Positions 3,511-64,000 of a stretch of 64,000 nt of DNA are shown piece by piece. Numbering within the stretch: the stretch's first letter is position 1; each line of letters starts with the position of its first letter. The notes below the pieces were generated by a model that did not search any database, had not been told where the DNA came from, and saw only the letters and a program-made list of their open reading frames with translations. The stretch is from Candidatus Alcyoniella australis (lineage in GTDB: Bacteria > Lernaellota > Lernaellaia > JAVCCG01 > Alcyoniellaceae). The translations under genes were made by a program, and so were the position numbers. The stretch spans positions 1-64,000 of the forward strand of contig JAVCCG010000095.1 of the NCBI GenBank assembly GCA_030765605.1, read 5' to 3'.

Positions 3511-3784
3511 ACAGCCGTGCACCCCTGATCGACCCTATCCGAGTAGAGCGTTTTCCCACGGGGGACGATTGGCCAGGCTGCCCACAACACACAGGCTGCT
3601 AACCTTACCGCTGCTTCCTCCCGGATCTGACGGGGTTCAGCTGCGCCTGTTGCGTGGGACCCGACCCATCCGTCCGCGAGAACGGACCCCTACACGGAAT
3701 CAAGCCTCTACAGGGGAATTCAGGCCCTTTATAGTGGATTGCGGGTTACAGGGCACCACTGGCTCCCCCCCTAGCACGGCCTAA
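3511..3784 (-). ncRNA. ffs: Signal recognition particle RNA, large (Alu-containing) bacterial form
   Basis: Read on the minus strand, the core contains the SRP54-binding signature GATCCGGGAGGAAGCAGC (about 3614-3631). The 5' end carries the Alu-like segment GGTGCCCTGTAACCCGC (about 3741-3757), known from the Firmicutes-type scRNA. The outermost 5' GCCGTGC (about 3775-3781) can pair with GCACGGC at the 3' end (about 3513-3519), which fixes the ends and gives about 270 nt rather than the 4.5S length of about 110 nt. It sits directly before dnaX, the classic location. Exact ends are approximate to a few bases. Confidence 0.9.
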
Positions 3785-3955
3785 GCAGACCTTAGTCATC
3801 GGGCCGCATGATGTCAACGCCGGATAAGGGGGGCGCGGACAATTGACGAACGAGCATCGGCTCTGCTATTGAGGGGATGAATTGGTCTGGATTTTTCTTG
3901 AGCCTTCGCTGCAGTACAAACTCGATAGGTGATCCAGGCGAGGAAAGGAGCCAAA
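3785..3955. other. Divergent intergenic region: SRP RNA (-) / poly-Asp lipoprotein (+)
   Basis: No gene is visible. The segment must carry the SRP RNA promoter on the minus strand and a plus-strand promoter. A strong ribosome binding site AGGAAAGGAG lies at 3941-3950, six bases before the GTG start at 3956. I could not assign -35/-10 boxes with confidence. Confidence 0.5.
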
Positions 3956-4444
3956 GTGAAAACGCGCACTCTTACCGTTTTGATATGCGTGCTGGCGCTG
4001 ATGCTGGCCGCCGGACTGGTCTTCGTGGCCTGCGGTTCGGACGACGACGACGACGACGGACGCACGACCGACGACGACTCGGACAATGACGACGACGATA
4101 CTGACGACGATGATTCGGACGACGACGATGTTGACGACGATGACGACGACATCGACGATGACGACGACGATGATGATGATGACGAGGCCGCGTGCGCCGA
4201 CGCGCAGTACAAAGTTTACGGCGATTGCAACGGCGATACGCTGATCGACGATCCGGACTCCGCCGAGTTCCTCGCCCTGTGTCCGGACGATGAGCCGGTG
4301 GCCGGATTCATGGACCAGTGCTATCCGCAGTACGCGGACAACTGTCAGCAGTTGATCTGCTGCGGATATTTCCTCAGCCCGGGATTCTACCTGTCCATGG
4401 CCATGGAGCCGGTCTGCAACGTTCTGGGACCGCCTCCCTATTGA
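3956..4444 (+). CDS. Poly-Asp lipoprotein, Cys-containing C-terminal domain of unknown function
   Basis: A 162-residue predicted lipoprotein. The GTG at 3956 is chosen because AGGAAAGGAG stands six bases upstream; an earlier in-frame start would place extra residues before the signal peptide. A hydrophobic signal ends in VFVAC, giving a lipidated Cys followed by GS and then an acidic stretch of about 55 residues, mostly Asp with a few Thr, Ser and Val. A compact 80-residue C-terminal part holds about eight Cys (including CPDD, DQCYPQ, LICC), suggesting disulfide bonds. The Asp run is coded by a GAC/GAT triplet array (about 4039-4185). No known family recognised. The stop codon abuts repeat locus A. 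Confidence 0.8.
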   Translation: MKTRTLTVLICVLALMLAAGLVFVACGSDDDDDDGRTTDDDSDNDDDDTDDDDSDDDDVDDDDDDIDDDDDDDDDDEAACADAQYKVYGDCNGDTLIDDPDSAEFLALCPDDEPVAGFMDQCYPQYADNCQQLICCGYFLSPGFYLSMAMEPVCNVLGPPPY

Positions 4445-4461
4445 CCCGGCTTTGAGCCGGG

Positions 4462-4490
4462 GGCACCTTAGAGGTGCCACAAAACTCGCG
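4462..4490 (+). repeat. Hairpin plus ACAAAACTCGC tail (locus A, copy 1)
   Basis: GGCACC and GGTGCC arms flank a five-base core, followed directly by ACAAAACTCGCGC. The same layout recurs at 17641-17671 and 62784-62812, and inverted at 4908-4940 and 17750-17774. Confidence 0.8.
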
Positions 4491-4579
4491 CAGTACGCTG
4501 GTCGTAATGCACCGACCCTCCCCGCGTCGAAAGATTCGTGAGGTGGAGTAAAGATCGTTAAAACGATCTTTGTGTGTAG

Positions 4580-4798
4580 GCTCGCCTTTAATCAATTTGG
4601 TTTTCCCAAGCGCAATGGCTTGCTTTGCGCGTTATCAAAGACCCATAGCCCATCGGTACAGCCTGTTTACAACGATCAACAAAAAGCGGCCGCGGCTTGG
4701 CACCTGTACTTGCCACGAACGCGGATCAGTCCATCCTCCAAAGATAACGCGCAAAGCAATCCATCACGCTGCCGACTTGGAGCTGATTAAAGGCGAGC
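4580..4798. mobile_element. MITE-like unit with two-part inverted repeats
   Basis: A 219-base unit bounded by a perfect 15-base inverted repeat, GCTCGCCTTTAATCA at 4580-4594 and its complement at 4784-4798. A second perfect 16-base inverted repeat lies inside it (TGCTTTGCGCGTTATC at 4621-4636 and its complement at 4743-4758). It encodes no protein. Locus B has a 317-base counterpart (17632-17948) bounded by a shorter GCTCGCCGAG/CTCGGCGAGC pair and followed, as here, by AGGTGGGGTGGG-type sequence. No clear target-site duplication was identified. Confidence 0.5.
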
Positions 4799-4925
4799 AG
4801 GTGGGGTGGGGCGGCTTGGAGCCGCTGCAAGGCTCGCATATTTCCCGGATCGTTTAGCGTCGATCTATGCCGCGTCGCGGAGATTATCGTTGAGCCACGA
4901 GTTTGGCCCGCTTGCGAGTTTTGTG

Positions 4926-4940
4926 CCGGCTCCAAGCCGG
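4926..4940 (-). repeat. Hairpin CCGGC-type with inverted CACAAAACTCGC tail (locus A)
   Basis: On the minus strand CCGGCTTGGAGCCGG is followed by CACAAAACTCGC, the same module as 4462-4490 in opposite orientation and with a different stem sequence. The stem differs but stays fully paired. Confidence 0.75.
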
Positions 4941-5056
4941 ATCATCCGTGGGGTGGGCTGATGCGCGCTGTTTGCGGTGCCATGTGCCAAGCCACGATCT
5001 AAGACCCATAATCGTACGAAACATTTTGTCTCGATAAACAAGACTTCTTTGAGAAC
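4941..5056. repeat. Segment shared in inverted orientation with locus B
   Basis: About 116 bases matching the complement of 17781-17897 with scattered differences. The clearest parts are GTTCTCAAAGAAG, ATCGAGA and GGCACCGCAAAC, read on the minus strand here and the plus strand in locus B. A CCGGCTCCAAGCCGG hairpin lies to the left of the segment in both loci although the segment itself is flipped. Confidence 0.75.
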
Positions 5057-5124
5057 GTGCTGATCGGGCTATCGTGCGTAGCCAGGTGAAAATCTAAATC
5101 TAGAAACCCTGCTCGCGCCTACCC

Positions 5125-5146
5125 AATAATGTTATTCAACATTATT
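5125..5146. repeat. AATAATGTT hairpin shared with locus B
   Basis: AATAATGTT and AACATTATT arms around a four-base loop, preceded by CTGCTCGCGCC. The same sequence stands at 18202-18223 in locus B with near identity over about 40 bases. Confidence 0.75.
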
Positions 5147-5172
5147 ACCCCCCGCCAATCTTGCGACGCGGG

Positions 5173-11913: not shown

Positions 11914-13137
11914 ATGAAACGGTCGACCGCGCTGATGGCGCTGACATTGGCAATTTTGCTCACTCTGTTCGTGGCGGCCTGCGAGATTGAAGACGACGAA
12001 GACGCCCAGCCCCCCGATGATCAAGGGGGCGACGACGTCGAAGACCCGCGCGGCGAGTACTTCGATCCCTCCCAGACCGGTCCCTATCCGATCGGCCACC
12101 GCACGCTGTACTTCGAGAATCCCGACGACACCGACATGCTGGGCAACCCGCGGCAGCTCTGCGTCGAGTTCTGGTACCCCACGGACGAGGCCTATCGCGA
12201 CGCCGAGCAGGATCGGCTGGGCGAGTTCTTCGGCGAATGGGAAGAGATGGTGCGCTCGATCCTCAGCCTGCTGGTATCACCCGAGGAGCTGGACAACTTC
12301 GATCTGCCCACCGGCGCGGTGCGCGACGCGCCGCCGCGCGCCGAGCTCGACGAGCTGCCGATCATCATCTTCAGCCACGGCAACTCCGGCGTACGCTCGC
12401 AGAACTACACGATGTGCAACCACCTGGCGAGCCACGGCTACCTGGTGATCGCGCCGGATCACACGGGCAACGCGCTGTTCGCGCCGTTCCCCGGCTCGTA
12501 CGTGATCTACAACATCTTGGGAATGCCCGCGTCGATCTGTCAGCGCCAGCGCGACTTCTCGTTCCTGCTCGACCAGTGCTACAAGATGAACGAGGAACCC
12601 GGCGGATTGTTCGAGGGACGGCTCGATCCCGAGCGCGTGGGCCTGGTCGGCCACAGCTTTGGCGGGCTGACCGCGGTCGAGGCGGCTAAAAAGGACACGC
12701 GCTTTCGTGCGGCGGTCGATCTGTGCTGCTACTTGATTCCCAGCTACCCGCAGAACTACCAGACAGCAACCATGTTCTGGCTCTCGCGTGAGGACAACAC
12801 GATGTTCGACACCGACGAGCTGATCATGCTCGGCTACGAGACCGCGCCCGCGCCCAAGGTGATGCTCGAGGTGCTGCGCGGCGGTCACTACTCGCCCACA
12901 GACGCCTGCTCGTTCATCCCCAGCCTGATGGGCGAGGGCGACGGCTGCGGCATGGGCGAATACGACGAGACCGGCGATCCGTTCGAGTTCCTGCCGCCGG
13001 ATCAGGCCAAGTTCCTGCTCAACACCTACCTCGCGTCGTTTTTCGGGGTCTACGTCAAGTACGACCTGCGCTACGTGGACGACCTGATCAACGAGTGGAT
13101 GCCCGAGGAGGCGCGGCTCAAGTTCGACCTGGGGTAG
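11914..13137 (+). CDS. Lipoprotein alpha/beta hydrolase (PAF-acetylhydrolase/dienelactone hydrolase-like)
   Basis: A 407-residue predicted lipoprotein. The signal peptide ends FVAAC (Cys23) and is followed by an acidic segment rich in Asp and Glu (EIEDDEDAQPP...). The mature part is an alpha/beta hydrolase. IIIFSHGNSG supplies the oxyanion region, the nucleophile elbow is GHSFGG with Ser248, and RGGHYSP near residue 325 may contain the catalytic His. The closest type is the platelet-activating-factor acetylhydrolase/predicted dienelactone hydrolase group; the substrate is unknown. The ribosome binding site is AGGAGG before ATG 11914. It lies eight bases after corC and probably ends the operon. 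Confidence 0.85.
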   Translation: MKRSTALMALTLAILLTLFVAACEIEDDEDAQPPDDQGGDDVEDPRGEYFDPSQTGPYPIGHRTLYFENPDDTDMLGNPRQLCVEFWYPTDEAYRDAEQDRLGEFFGEWEEMVRSILSLLVSPEELDNFDLPTGAVRDAPPRAELDELPIIIFSHGNSGVRSQNYTMCNHLASHGYLVIAPDHTGNALFAPFPGSYVIYNILGMPASICQRQRDFSFLLDQCYKMNEEPGGLFEGRLDPERVGLVGHSFGGLTAVEAAKKDTRFRAAVDLCCYLIPSYPQNYQTATMFWLSREDNTMFDTDELIMLGYETAPAPKVMLEVLRGGHYSPTDACSFIPSLMGEGDGCGMGEYDETGDPFEFLPPDQAKFLLNTYLASFFGVYVKYDLRYVDDLINEWMPEEARLKFDLG

Positions 13138-13327
13138 GCCCGCAAAGCTCGGCGCGCCGGATCAATGCTGTGAAAGCGCTTCGACGCGCCGTGCTTGCCT
13201 TTTACATCAAAGATTGGTCCGCGCAGTGGCCGGGCGCTGATGGCCCGGGTTATCTTGATGGATGGAATCGTGCTGTGCGCTAGGCTGCGTTGCTGTGGGC
13301 CGGGGGCTTACGGACGATTGCGGGAGA
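13138..13327. other. Intergenic region between hydrolase lipoprotein and RAYT gene
   Basis: A 190-base gap between convergent genes. A short hairpin CCGGGC/GCCCGG with a seven-base loop is at 13230-13248. It does not share the core or tail of the hairpin family at loci A-C. No gene is seen. Confidence 0.4.
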
Positions 13328-17601: not shown

Positions 17602-17623
17602 AAAGATCGATAAATCGATCTTT
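17602..17623. repeat. AAAGATCG palindrome (locus B)
   Basis: AAAGATCGAT and ATCGATCTTT arms around a short centre. Matches at 4550-4571 and 62744-62765 differ inside the arms but stay paired. All three are followed by TGT or TAT, then GTAG and GGCTCGCC. Confidence 0.8.
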
Positions 17624-17640: not shown

Positions 17641-17671
17641 GGGCACCTTTGAGGTGCCCGCAAAACTCGCG
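17641..17671 (+). repeat. Hairpin plus CAAAACTCGC tail (locus B)
   Basis: GGGCACC/GGTGCCC arms with core TTTGA, followed by GCAAAACTCGCGCAGTACG. The tail is nearly identical to the one at 4479-4497 of locus A. Confidence 0.8.
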
Positions 17672-17780
17672 CAGTACGACCATCATTGTTCAACGCCAAG
17701 CCCCGCGTCGCGGAGAGCATTATTGAGTCATAAAACAGGTGACGCTCGCGAGTATCGTGCCGGCTCCAAGCCGGCAGCGC

Positions 17781-17993: not shown

Positions 17994-18291
17994 CGCCTCT
18001 CCTCCCCAGTTCGCGGGGTGTTCGAAATTAATTTTGAGGTGGACTGAGCGGCGTGCTTTTCCACGTGCATGTCGAAGAAAACGTGCGTCGAGAACCCTGT
18101 AAGGCTGACCTACTGACTGTTGAGGGTCGCGGATACTGTCAAAGGGGGCATGCACTCCGATATTAATAAATTTTGAGACAATGCCCTGCTCGCGCCCACC
18201 TAATAATGTTATCCAACATTATTCTCCACCCCCATCTTTCTACGCGGGGCGGGGCGTGGCATTAGGACCAGCGGACTGCGCGAGCCTTGCC

Positions 18292-18308
18292 CCCGGCTCA
18301 AAGCCGGG
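18292..18308 (-). repeat. CCCGGC hairpin with CAAGGCTCGC tail (locus B)
   Basis: On the minus strand CCCGGCTTTGAGCCGGG is followed by GGCAAGGCTCGCGC. The tail matches that after the 4811-4825 hairpin (TGCAAGGCTCGC). Confidence 0.75.
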
Positions 18309-18482
18309 CGCGGAGAGGCTCGTTGGATTACGACCATGGTTGCTCGCGTGCATTGCTGCGGCTCGAAGCCGCCGCGGCTGATGGCCGCTGGTAAGCCGCC
18401 GGCCTTTCCACGGATCAATCGATCGAGTATAATCCGCCGATTTTTAAACCGGTTTGTAGATTAACAAAGAAGTGATGCAGCG

Positions 18483-31975: not shown

Positions 31976-33540
31976 TGCGGCTGTTGATTAGACTGACGCT
32001 GATCTGCGCTTTAACCCTGTGCCTCGCGGGCGCGGTCTGGGCCGACGAAAGCGGCGGCGACGACGAGGACGGCGACAATGACGACGACGGCGCGAGCGTC
32101 GAGGACCTCGAACGGCGCGTGTCGCGGCTGGAGCAGCAGAACAAACGGCTGCGCGGCGACTCCCAGACCCTGGTCTTTCCCAACGGCTGGCAGGTCAAGT
32201 TCGAGGGCGAGCTGCGCAACCGCGCGCTGATCGAGGCCAACACGCTGAACAACTATGAGAACTTCGCCGGGGTCCGGGTCTACGCCTACGACAAGCGCTC
32301 GACGTTCAAGAACGACTACGGCTGGTGGGACATGCGCTTTGTCAACAAGCTGGTGGTCGACTTCGGCTACGGCGCGGAGCTGGGGATCAAGCTCCAGCTG
32401 GGCGACATCGTCTGGGGCAGCCACGCGCCGGTCTACGGCCTGGGCGGCTCCGATAAGTTCGACCAGGTCACCTTGCAGTTCCGCGAGCTGTACGCACGTT
32501 GGTCGATCTGGCCGATCCCGCTGTACATGGAGGCCGGCCGCACGCGCTTCGACCTGGGGCACCGGATGCTGATGGGCGGCGAGTTCGACGGCGTCAAGGC
32601 CTGGTACCAGCACGAGTACTTCAACGTCGGATTCTGGTCGGCGCGGCAGTACGAGGGCGAGAATTACGAGATGAGCATGCAGACCAACGACGATGAGGAC
32701 ACCTTTGTCCTCAGCGTCGAGGGCTACCCGGCGCAGCAATCGGTGGTCGGCGCTTACGGCTGGATCAACGACTGGAAGGTCGTGGCGCAGCCCAGCTACC
32801 CCGACCCGAGCTCGCCGCTGTACCTGCTGCCGGCGTTCGAGCAGGACCTGTACACCGAGCAGAACAGCCAGCAGTGGGACGTCGGCGTCTGGACCGAGTT
32901 GCGGCCCAGCAACCTGATCCGCATCAAGGCGCAGTACGACCATCAGTTCGGCAAACTGATTCACAGCGAGGACTACCCGGACCAGCCCGATATCGAGTTC
33001 AAGGGCTTCGCCGGATTCGCCAAGCTCGACTTTCTCTGGAGCGAGGATCGCAACATGATCTTCCTCGCCGGCGGTTACGGCTCGGGAGACGACCCGGACA
33101 CAGTCGACTACGAGGGCTTCTTTGCGCCGGACAACCGCTTCGGGATCTACGAGGAGGGGATGGACGAGTACGCGGAGCACGGCTACTTCGCGGTCTACGA
33201 GCATCTCTCGCCCGGCGCCGGAGTGCCCGGCAGGCTCAAAGACGACCTGGGATCCGGCGGCGTGGAAAACACGATCTGGGCCAACGTGGGCTGGGACTCC
33301 TCGTGGCAGGCCAACCACCACTACTACGTGTCAGTGGGCTACATCCAGGCCGCGCGCGAGAACCCCTACACCGACTCCGCGCTGATCGGGATCGAGAACG
33401 ACGTGCGCATCGACTACCTGTTCTCCAACAACGTGGTGTTCTCGATTTACGGAGGACACCTGTTCATCATCGGCGACTACTTCCGCAACGATGCCCACGA
33501 TGCGGCGCAGCTCTACTTCGAGTGGAAGCTGCTGTGGTGA
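31975..33540 (+). CDS. Outer-membrane beta-barrel (porin-like) with acidic linker and coiled coil
   Basis: A 521-residue exported protein. The signal peptide (about 1-23, ending GAVWA) is followed by an Asp/Glu-rich linker (DESGGDDEDGDNDDDG) and a short coiled coil (SVEDLERRVSRLEQQNKRL). The rest alternates aromatic and polar residues as in an outer-membrane barrel (FKNDYGWWDMRFVNKLVVDF; VVFSIYGGHLFIIGDYF) and ends in a terminal Trp. It loosely resembles alginate-export-type barrels. It starts at the lpxI stop (TGATG), so it belongs to the lipid A operon. Function unknown. Confidence 0.78.
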   Translation: MRLLIRLTLICALTLCLAGAVWADESGGDDEDGDNDDDGASVEDLERRVSRLEQQNKRLRGDSQTLVFPNGWQVKFEGELRNRALIEANTLNNYENFAGVRVYAYDKRSTFKNDYGWWDMRFVNKLVVDFGYGAELGIKLQLGDIVWGSHAPVYGLGGSDKFDQVTLQFRELYARWSIWPIPLYMEAGRTRFDLGHRMLMGGEFDGVKAWYQHEYFNVGFWSARQYEGENYEMSMQTNDDEDTFVLSVEGYPAQQSVVGAYGWINDWKVVAQPSYPDPSSPLYLLPAFEQDLYTEQNSQQWDVGVWTELRPSNLIRIKAQYDHQFGKLIHSEDYPDQPDIEFKGFAGFAKLDFLWSEDRNMIFLAGGYGSGDDPDTVDYEGFFAPDNRFGIYEEGMDEYAEHGYFAVYEHLSPGAGVPGRLKDDLGSGGVENTIWANVGWDSSWQANHHYYVSVGYIQAARENPYTDSALIGIENDVRIDYLFSNNVVFSIYGGHLFIIGDYFRNDAHDAAQLYFEWKLLW

Positions 33541-59086: not shown

Positions 59087-59261
59087 CAATGCGCTCCTCG
59101 CTTACGAACCATCATGAATGATACGGGTAATGCCCCGCATCCTACATGTCATCTTGCCGTTCACTCAAGCGGGCTCATTGTGCCTGTATGTGCTTTTCAT
59201 TATATTAGCAACGGAATTTGCGCCCAGCCGGTTGCCACGCGCAGCCTGATTAGGAGAAATG

Positions 59262-59732
59262 ATGAGCAGCAGAGCGATATACATCGTTGTCTTCTCGCTA
59301 TTGACGGCGCTGCTGCTGGCGGCCTCGTGCGGCAGCGGTTCGTCCGGCGACGATGACGACGACGACGACAGCGAGGTGCTCGGAACCCTGGCCGGGACGA
59401 TCCAGTACGACGGCGACGCTGTGGGCGAGGAGATCGTGATCGGCCTGATCAACGAGTGGCCGATGACCAGCCCGCCCCAACAGTTCATCAGGGTGACCGT
59501 GCCCGATGGCGGGTTTCCCATGGCCTACGAGATCGAGCTGAACTACGTCGGCGACTATTTTCTGGCCTCGTTCCTCGACGTCGACCCGATGGACGGCGTG
59601 GCAATGAACAGCGAGATCGACCCGATGGATATGCCCGACGAGGGCGAGACCAAACAGACTCTGGTCCAGGGAGTCAACCAGCGCGACTTCACGCTGCTCG
59701 ATCCCGAGGACGTCGATTTCTGGTGGCAGTGA
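59262..59732 (+). CDS. Poly-Asp lipoprotein with one copy of an unrecognised domain
   Basis: A 156-residue predicted lipoprotein. The signal ends LLLAASC, followed by GSGSSG and seven Asp. The single mature domain (about residues 40-150) shares with the next gene the segments YDGDAVGE, WPMTSPP, VPDGGFPM.YE, FLDVDPMDGVAMN and DFTLLDPED. The pattern is beta-rich and like carboxypeptidase-regulatory folds, but I do not recognise a family. AGGAG precedes the ATG pair at 59259/59262. Confidence 0.78.
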   Translation: MSSRAIYIVVFSLLTALLLAASCGSGSSGDDDDDDDSEVLGTLAGTIQYDGDAVGEEIVIGLINEWPMTSPPQQFIRVTVPDGGFPMAYEIELNYVGDYFLASFLDVDPMDGVAMNSEIDPMDMPDEGETKQTLVQGVNQRDFTLLDPEDVDFWWQ

Positions 59733-59770
59733 GCGTACACTCCGACCACCCCTAGACAGAATTGGCTAAA

Positions 59771-60607
59771 ATGAAACGTAACAAGCTTACTTGGTTGTTT
59801 GCAATCGTGACGCTGCTTGCGGCGCTGATCTGGATCATTGCCTTGCCCGCGTGCTCTGGCGACGATGACGACGATGACAACGACGACGACGATTGGAGCA
59901 ATTTTCCGGCCACAATCAGCGGCACAATGTCCTACGAGGGCGACGCCGTGGGCGCGCAGGTGATGATCGCCATCGCCGACCAGTGGCCGATGACATCGGC
60001 GCCGCTGTACTTCACCTACGTCGACGTGCCGCAAAGCGGATTCCCCTTCTCCTATCGCGCGGGCCTGGATCGCACCGGGCCGCTCTACGTGTTGGCGCTG
60101 ATCGACGTCGACCCGGACGACGGCCTGGGCATGAATCCCGAGCTCGATCCGCTGGACATCCCCGAGGAGCCCAGCCAGATCGTGGCCGGCGACAACGTGA
60201 TCGACTTCAACTTCCTCGACCCGGATCAGATCGCGGACGACGACGATGATGACGACGACGACGACGACGATGACGACGACGTCACCGGGGTCAAGGGCGT
60301 GTTGGTCTACGACGGCGCGGCCGTGGGCGAGAACGTGGTGATCGGTCTGTGGGACACGCCGCTGCCGTTTCCCACCAGCGCGCCGGACCACTCGTTTCAG
60401 GTTCCGGTGCCCGAGAGCGGATTTGCCTTTGAGTACCGCGTTGAGTCCGAGGTGCCCGGCGAGTGGCGCATGGCCGCCTACCTCGACGTGAACCCCGAGG
60501 ACGGTCCGAGCATGAACGACGTGGATCCGCGCGACATGACCTTTGGCCAGACCACCATCGTCAGCGGGCAAATGGCGACCCGCGACTTCATGCTGGTCGA
60601 CAACTGA
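59771..60607 (+). CDS. Poly-Asp lipoprotein with two copies of the same domain
   Basis: A 278-residue predicted lipoprotein starting at ATG 59771 (TTG 59762 is an alternative). The signal ends ALPAC, then SG and an Asp run. Domain 1 (about 42-150) and domain 2 (about 172-278) align with each other and with the previous gene: YEGDAVGA / YDGAAVGE, VPQSGFPFSYR / VPESGFAFEYR, LIDVDPDDGLGMN / YLDVNPEDGPSMN and DFNFLDPD / DFMLVDN. They are joined by an almost pure Asp linker of about 15 residues. The two genes clearly arose by duplication. Confidence 0.8.
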   Translation: MKRNKLTWLFAIVTLLAALIWIIALPACSGDDDDDDNDDDDWSNFPATISGTMSYEGDAVGAQVMIAIADQWPMTSAPLYFTYVDVPQSGFPFSYRAGLDRTGPLYVLALIDVDPDDGLGMNPELDPLDIPEEPSQIVAGDNVIDFNFLDPDQIADDDDDDDDDDDDDDDVTGVKGVLVYDGAAVGENVVIGLWDTPLPFPTSAPDHSFQVPVPESGFAFEYRVESEVPGEWRMAAYLDVNPEDGPSMNDVDPRDMTFGQTTIVSGQMATRDFMLVDN

Positions 60608-62732: not shown

Positions 62733-62913
62733 AGCGGCGGGATAAAGATCGAGAAATCGATCTTTATATGTAGGGCTCGCCTGGGCGGCTTGGAGCCGCC
62801 ACAAAACTCGCAAAGCACGCTGGTCGCAGCGCCACCCACCCCGCGCCGCGGAGAAGATCGTGGAGTTATGACTATGGTCCGCCCGCGTGCCATGCGGGCA
62901 CCTCAAAGGTGCC
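62733..62913. repeat. Intergenic repeat locus C
   Basis: A short copy of the repeat family between convergent genes. It contains the AAAGATCG palindrome (62744-62765), TATGTAGGGCTCGCC, a GGCGGC hairpin (62784-62800) with ACAAAACTCGC tail, a CCCCGCGCCGCGGAG block also in locus B, and a GGCACC hairpin (62897-62913) that overlaps the end of the next gene. Confidence 0.85.
62897..62913 (-). repeat. GGCACC hairpin overlapping the 3' end of the membrane protein gene
   Basis: On the minus strand GGCACCTTTGAGGTGCC supplies the last sense codons and the TGA stop of the gene at 62903. The tail on that strand is CGCATGGCACGCG, a variant of the tail at 18358 (AGCAATGCACGCG). Confidence 0.75.
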
Positions 62914-64000
62914 TGAGGACGTAGACCTGTTTTCCCTCAGCGTCCGCAACCGCGTCCACTGACCGATAGGGCGGCAGGTCGGCGCACAGCTCATCGAGCT
63001 GTTGCGCGGGCACATAGCCGAAATCTTCGCGCCGGGTGATCGGACCGCACGGCTCGCGATCCGGTGTGAGGATCAGACCAAGGGGTGGGCCCAGGCGATA
63101 GAACAACGGATTGTGCTCGATCCCCACGTGCTCGTAGCTGTAGATCGGCACGATGCTCATGCCGTAATACGCGCTGTAGAGCATCACCTCGGCGGGCTCC
63201 ACGCTGACCGTGCCCATGATTGCCGCGCTTGAACTTTGCGGCCACTGCCCGTGACGCAGCAGGGCGCAGGTGATGTCCAGGGACGCGCGCTCGAATCCGC
63301 GCGGCGAACGCGGTACGTCCTGCTCGAACACGAAACTGCGCGAGCGCCCGACCTGAGGGTCGAAGCTCAGATCCAAGACCCGGACCCAGCCCAAGCCAAG
63401 CGCCACACAGATTGCGGCGGTTGCCATCAATGCCCGACGTTTGGGAAGCAGGGCGCGCGCCTGCACGAGTCCCACGCTGATCAGCACGGCCAGGGCGGGC
63501 AGCACCAACAGCAGCCGTCGCGATTCGCGGTTGGGCCATGCGCTGAGGAACGCCAGGGCGGCCAGGCAGTACGCGACCAGGAACGCCGCGGCACGGCGCT
63601 TGCGGTTCGCTCGACTCAGGGCCAGGGGCATGGAGGCAATGGCGGCCAGGGCCCACCAGGGTTCGATGCTTACTCGGAACAGCTCGACCGGCAGGGCCAG
63701 AAAGGGCAGGGCGCCCAGCGCACCGGGCAGGCTGAACTCGGGCGCGAACGGTCCCTCGGACAGGCCGGCGCGTAAAATCGCCAGCGACCCGGAGGGTACG
63801 ATTTGAAAGTAGAGCCACAGGCCCAGGCCGAAGCTCGCCAGGGATAAAAATAGGTTGAGCCCAACCCTGCCGGTGTGCCGCAGCCGGTCGCGCGAGCGCC
63901 GCAGCTCGAGTAACACGGCGCACAGCCCGGCAACGATCGCGGGCAGGGCGTAGATCGGGAACTCGTAGCGTACGAGCATTCCGGCGCTGAGCAGCAAGCC
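62903..64000 (-). CDS. Polytopic membrane protein, C-terminal part (GT-C-like), cut by window edge
   Basis: At least 365 residues; the 5' end lies beyond the window. Six or more hydrophobic spans fill the visible N-terminal 210 residues, followed by a periplasmic C-terminal domain of about 150 residues (SVEPAEVMLYSAYYGMSIVPIYSYEHVGIEHN). This layout matches membrane glycosyltransferases of the ArnT/PMT (GT-C) type, whose catalytic N-terminal loop would be off the window. The last residues RHL and the stop are encoded inside a repeat hairpin. Confidence 0.65.
   Translation of the reverse strand, partial: GLLLSAGMLVRYEFPIYALPAIVAGLCAVLLELRRSRDRLRHTGRVGLNLFLSLASFGLGLWLYFQIVPSGSLAILRAGLSEGPFAPEFSLPGALGALPFLALPVELFRVSIEPWWALAAIASMPLALSRANRKRRAAAFLVAYCLAALAFLSAWPNRESRRLLLVLPALAVLISVGLVQARALLPKRRALMATAAICVALGLGWVRVLDLSFDPQVGRSRSFVFEQDVPRSPRGFERASLDITCALLRHGQWPQSSSAAIMGTVSVEPAEVMLYSAYYGMSIVPIYSYEHVGIEHNPLFYRLGPPLGLILTPDREPCGPITRREDFGYVPAQQLDELCADLPPYRSVDAVADAEGKQVYVLRHL

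Follow-up and report, generated by a model that had tools for sequence, protein, structure and literature searches.

The window analyzed here, a 64-kb stretch of the 4.29-Mb draft genome of Candidatus Alcyoniella australis (157 contigs, 98% complete), contains ten copies of a short hairpin, H1, at three intergenic loci (Table 1). All ten were located within 1–2 nt of the positions given in a preliminary description of this DNA. Eleven CT[TC]NGAG cores with at least five base pairs were identified across the window, of which ten are these hairpins and one, at 33512, lies within a gene and resembles a chance occurrence; Markov shuffles of the window yielded only 0–5 such hairpins, with a mean of about 2. 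A covariance model of hairpin plus tail, into which some of the window copies had gone, recovered the same copies with E values ranging from 1e-10 to 0.014, and its next match had an E value of 0.09. Three points were absent from the preliminary description: the hairpin opens a unit of about 65 nt, its family is genome-wide, and the copy at 62897–62913 (minus strand) overlaps the 3′ end of a predicted ORF (62903–63997, minus strand). The stop codon of this ORF is the TGA of the H1 loop (62903–62905). In addition, the minus strand of the window encodes, at 3515–3779, a large SRP RNA of the bacterial type (Rfam RF01854, 152 bits), and at 59348–60601 a segment of about 360 nt is present in three diverged copies, perhaps internal domain repeats, across predicted ORFs 59259–60607.

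Table 1. H1 hairpins, companion palindromes and the RAYT gene identified in the window.
Feature	Position	Strand	Remarks
H1, CCGGC stem	4445..4461	+	Right behind the TGA stop of ORF 3929–4444; adjoins the next hairpin
Complete unit of ~65 nt	4462..4526	+	H1 with GCACC stem (4462–4478), tail CAAAACTCGCG, linker, GGTCGT..CCGACC segment, CCCCGCG end
Companion palindrome H3 (second family)	4550..4571	+	AAAGATCGTTAAAACGATCTTT
Convergent doublet, REPIN/BIME-like	4809..4942	.	H1 GCGGC 4810–4826 (+); H1 CCGGC 4926–4940 (-)
RAYT (REP-associated tyrosine transposase) P0001, 190 aa	13328..13900	-	Candidate mobilizer; no H1 flanks
Companion palindrome H3	17602..17623	+	
Convergent doublet	17641..17776	.	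H1 GCACC 17641–17659 (+); H1 CCGGC 17758–17776 (-)
H1, CCGGC stem (18292–18308), with tail	18279..18309	-	In tandem with the copy at 18345..18374
H1, GCGGC stem (18358–18372)	18345..18374	-	Tail variant GCACGCG
Companion palindrome H3	62744..62765	+	
Convergent doublet	62783..62914	.	H1 GCGGC 62784–62800 (+); H1 GCACC 62897–62913 (-)

H1 consists of a stem of 5–7 bp and a CT-TNG-AG core, and on its 3′ side carries a fixed tail, CAAAACTCGC, of which both previously noted variants, CTCGC(G) and CACGCG, are real. Any base can occupy position N of the loop (T 29, G 25, A 17, C 4). Stem types are few, namely GCACC, GCGGC, CCGGC and GCAGC, with others and hybrids being rare. H1 is the start of a unit of 64–69 nt in which it is followed by CAAAACTCGCG, a linker, a GGTCGT-like segment and CYCCGCG; mini-units of 28 nt are also present. 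In the aligned set of units, C.CGC of the tail and the terminal CCGC were invariant. Different stems occur on units that share up to 96% identity elsewhere, and at six places a complete hairpin stands straight after a left arm plus loop. Stem type nevertheless correlates with the remaining unit (a difference of 5% in identity, which none of 2000 permutations reached). Given this correlation and the occurrence of unlike stems on near-identical units, stem types are likely to be both inherited and exchanged.

The stems had been described as differing yet always pairing, which was taken to imply that the structure is under selection or that a structure-reading enzyme copies it. For an assessment of covariation, 141 copies were picked by loop core and tail with the stem ignored, because a choice based on pairing would be circular. 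All five pairs were formed in 118 of the 141 copies. Pair 2 was standard in 136 copies (69 expected with independent sides), pair 3 in 132 (101 expected) and pair 5 in 125 (85 expected), counts that come from related copies and are not independent events; pairs 1 and 4 were nearly invariant and thus uninformative. A separate pairing analysis also agreed on kept complementarity, but its copies were chosen for pairing. Pairing is nearly always kept, and a stem that covaries while loop, tail and unit end stay fixed supports either selection on structure or a structure-reading copying enzyme. H1 is the only element of the unit with clearly supported pairing and the only one that RNAalifold retained. 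Covariation support for a second hairpin, GGTCGT..ACGACC, was weak and unclear, and an enclosing outer CGCG stem had none.

The preliminary description had made the family depend on further copies being present in the genome. Hundreds were found, and the family is genome-wide. The hairpin alone (core plus stem class pattern) matched 280 places against 11 in the control, and the exact pattern of hairpin plus fixed tail matched 185 places against one in the reversed control, while the covariance model gave at least 138 matches (150 of 4392 candidates scored). The H1 family was found in none of 385 other genomes, six of which are of the same class, the nearest relatives belonging to other families; a single match was chance-like, and weak hits seen in G005 (two) and G022 (one) look like chance. 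One stem type, GCACC, with the full tail had no match in IMG/VR, and one consensus unit had none in the plasmid collection. H1 hairpins are a lineage-specific family of about 270 short REP-type palindromes between the genes of a poorly known bacterium.

Gene context and arrangement were assessed in 13 contigs (775 kb), part of which was chosen for high copy number, with genes called by a simple hexamer caller that places gene edges approximately. Tail-positive H1 copies were intergenic in 73 of 75 cases. In 11 of 80 copies, no more than 12 nt separated the 5′ arm from a co-directional stop codon, compared to 1.5 expected by random placement and a maximum of six in 1000 random runs. In a wider, search-biased set, 24 5′ arms were within 12 nt of a co-directional stop versus one near an opposed gene start. 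TAG was commoner among the H1-adjacent stops, accounting, as counted by eye, for 12 of 19 within 8 nt versus 26% genome-wide (p 0.0008). REPs are known to sit close to the 3′ ends of ORFs, and the termini of GTAG REPs often provide a TAG stop (PMC3733652).

Neighboring H1 copies in the same contigs formed 36 tandem, nine convergent and one divergent pairs. The spacing of tandem copies was mostly 28–31 or 60–69 nt. That of convergent copies was mostly 113–117 nt between centers, with two more pairs at 286 and 304. The stem types were unlike in all nine convergent pairs; one same-stem convergent pair was found in L023. An array of eight units of about 65 nt (C119:139742-140250; L107, L108) starts right at the 3′ terminus of a tRNA-like gene, the last bases of which are CTCTCGCA. 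CTCGC was rejected as an insertion target: its enrichment upstream of H1 arises because units stand in tandem, and it is absent at single copies with new flanks. The companion palindrome H3, AAAGATCGNNNAANCGATCTTT followed by a GTGTGTAGG-like sequence, was found at about 43 genomic places (control 0), often beside H1 arrays, and its inner pairs are changed but still matching. A third palindrome, AATAATGTTATYCAACATTATT near CCTGCTCGCGCC, occurs at two of the three window loci (5125–5146 and 18202–18223). The three loci look like mosaics of several modules.

P0001 possesses the HUH motif, the catalytic Tyr region and the profile expected of a RAYT. It matches NCBIfam REP_Tyr_transpos NF047646 with 146 bits (cut-off 80), its best solved relative is the aligned TnpA_REP 4ER8, and it is the only Y1_Tnp match found in the genome. 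Judged by its sequence, P0001 is a RAYT. However, it does not form a REPtron, in which a RAYT lies between two inverted REP copies: neither an H1 hairpin nor obvious inverted repeats were found in its flanks, and a candidate H1 remnant beside it (13136–13154) reached 5.3 bits with an E value of 0.33 only. The identities between P0001 and RAYT-like proteins of other genomes were at most about 37% over short stretches, and a scan of genome contigs with P0001 identified only two distant relatives. RAYT-like genes of other genomes, found via weak protein matches, have hairpins on both sides in G003–G006 of the same class and also in G010 and G015, some with GTAG. Those of the same class (L072 1427–1990, L070 1451–1991, L088 1456–2135 and L073 1261–1885) are flanked by inverted hairpins of unrelated sequence, and in the L073 set GTAG adjoins a stem. 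REPtrons thus exist in the class. Cognate RAYTs have been reported to be always flanked by their REP (PMC2817692). Lacking flanking H1, P0001 cannot be called the cognate RAYT of H1.

We consider it fairly probable that H1 is a lineage-specific REP-type element that is read mainly by shape and copied, likeliest of all, in trans by a RAYT-type HUH/Y1 transposase. H1 would be a small non-autonomous DNA element, recognized as a single-stranded hairpin mainly via its shape, the stem being free to vary while paired and the loop core and tail being fixed. Within a single genome it would have multiplied in the form of lone units, convergent doublets and arrays running head-to-tail. Its copies persist between genes, preferentially just behind stop codons, where transcription would give each the form of a hairpin at the 3′ end of the mRNA. 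A RAYT-type transposase would be the likeliest copier. The analogy is with TnpA_REP, whose cleavage sites are CT dinucleotides next to a REP hairpin; the conserved CT of the H1 tail is accordingly a putative cut site, and the RAYT of the window would act in trans on H1. The analysis shows how many H1 copies there are, how they are built and placed, that their stems covary, that they are restricted to this lineage and that a RAYT is present; we infer this mobilization, the CT cut and any effect on the mRNA. The unflanked P0001 and a tail without a described REP tag speak against RAYT mobilization, and the arrays could have grown by replication slippage or recombination instead of transposition.

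Another or now-lost enzyme may instead have spread H1, similar to the CGTC REPs, which apparently spread without a dedicated transposase; the RAYT of the window would then be unrelated. This alternative is possible, if clearly less likely. The bare flanks of P0001 and its low identities to other RAYT-like proteins are in its favor, and in a draft of 157 contigs with repeats near the contig ends a flanked RAYT could be missing. Against it stands the presence of exactly one Y1 transposase in a 98% complete genome with a Y1-style repeat. More doubtful is the suggestion that H1, which has neither GTAG nor CGTC, represents a third type of REP tag, made of shape plus the fixed tail, with a RAYT that works in trans after losing flanking repeats of its own and with whole stems exchanged between units.

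It is rather improbable that H1 is at bottom an RNA element acting in cis, favored at the 3′ ends of mRNAs by selection for blocking exonucleases or damping translation and copied only incidentally. The polarity of the stop-proximal copies is consistent with such a role, and according to work cited in PMC12306157, translation in E. coli can be lowered by REPs that lie no more than 15 nt from a stop codon. Most copies, however, lie away from stops, large head-to-tail arrays occur, and none of the other genomes searched has the family. An RNA role would nevertheless be compatible with a mobile origin and is no strict alternative to it. A MITE of a DDE transposon, with H1 and its inverted partner as terminal inverted repeats, would account for the near-constant size of the convergent doublets, but is very unlikely given that the ends carry unlike stems in all nine convergent pairs of the 13 contigs, the same-stem pair in L023 aside, and that tandem arrays and single units predominate. 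Hardly credible are Rho-independent terminators or a known structured RNA: the hairpins are GC-rich and stand behind genes, but no GC hairpin followed by a T run was found at the first locus, the tail contains no T run, and H1 has no Rfam match.

REPs have been characterized as short extragenic palindromes that number more than 100, form doublets and clusters, keep their complementarity and lie next to stop codons (PMC2817692, PMC3733652, PMC3116915). H1 is likewise a short extragenic palindrome with more than 100 copies per genome (280 or 185, depending on the pattern), kept complementarity, and doublets and clusters of constant spacing. The earlier remark that no described family was recognized thus holds for the sequence of H1, but not for its kind. 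To the extent that H1 matches no Rfam family and carries neither published REP tag, it is identical to none of the known REP families. TAG stands directly before only 15 of 280 hairpins, several of these being stop codons, and an unpaired GTAG head next to the stem was rejected as a general feature. The CGTC REPs are defined by an unpaired CGTC/TGTC/CCTC motif at one end and a stem of 8–9 bp (PMC3733652); no such end motif was recognized beside the 5–7 bp stem of H1, where the tail consensus is CAAAACTCGC. Broadly defined, H1 is a family of the REP type that stands apart from both the GTAG and the CGTC superfamily.

Similar to the GTAG REPs with RAYTs of E. coli, Stenotrophomonas and Marinomonas, H1 is short, extragenic, present in more than 100 copies, kept complementary, arranged in doublets and clusters and found near the 3′ ends of ORFs (PMC2817692, PMC3733652, PMC8266576), and its genome also has a RAYT gene. 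Different from them, H1 has no constant GTAG head and possesses a fixed 3′ tail, a 65-nt unit and an unflanked RAYT. The stems of published group 3 REPs are short and perfect, one such REP has a T-A pair in the loop with one free base, and cleavage is at CT or CA (PMC8266576); the CTTN-type loop of H1 resembles that of the Haemophilus REP GGGCTTtAGCCC. Like REPINs (PMC3116915), H1 forms inverted doublets of constant spacing that are able to fold together, as well as tandem clusters, but its tandem same-direction pairs outnumber the convergent ones, whose partners usually have unlike stems. Heterodimers are also common in some families of CGTC REPs, which are intergenic and without a flanking transposase as H1 is (PMC3733652), whereas the tail of H1 is longer and more conserved and its stem shorter. 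The mosaic clusters of H1, H3 and other short modules recall BIMEs (PMC2817692), although the modules differ and the order of H1 is mostly head-to-tail rather than alternating in orientation. Since a few discrete stem types swap on an otherwise fixed unit, H1 offers a natural test of how far a RAYT-type enzyme reads a REP hairpin as shape and how far as sequence. With H1, a class that has been little sampled contributes a REP-like family beyond the two described tag superfamilies.
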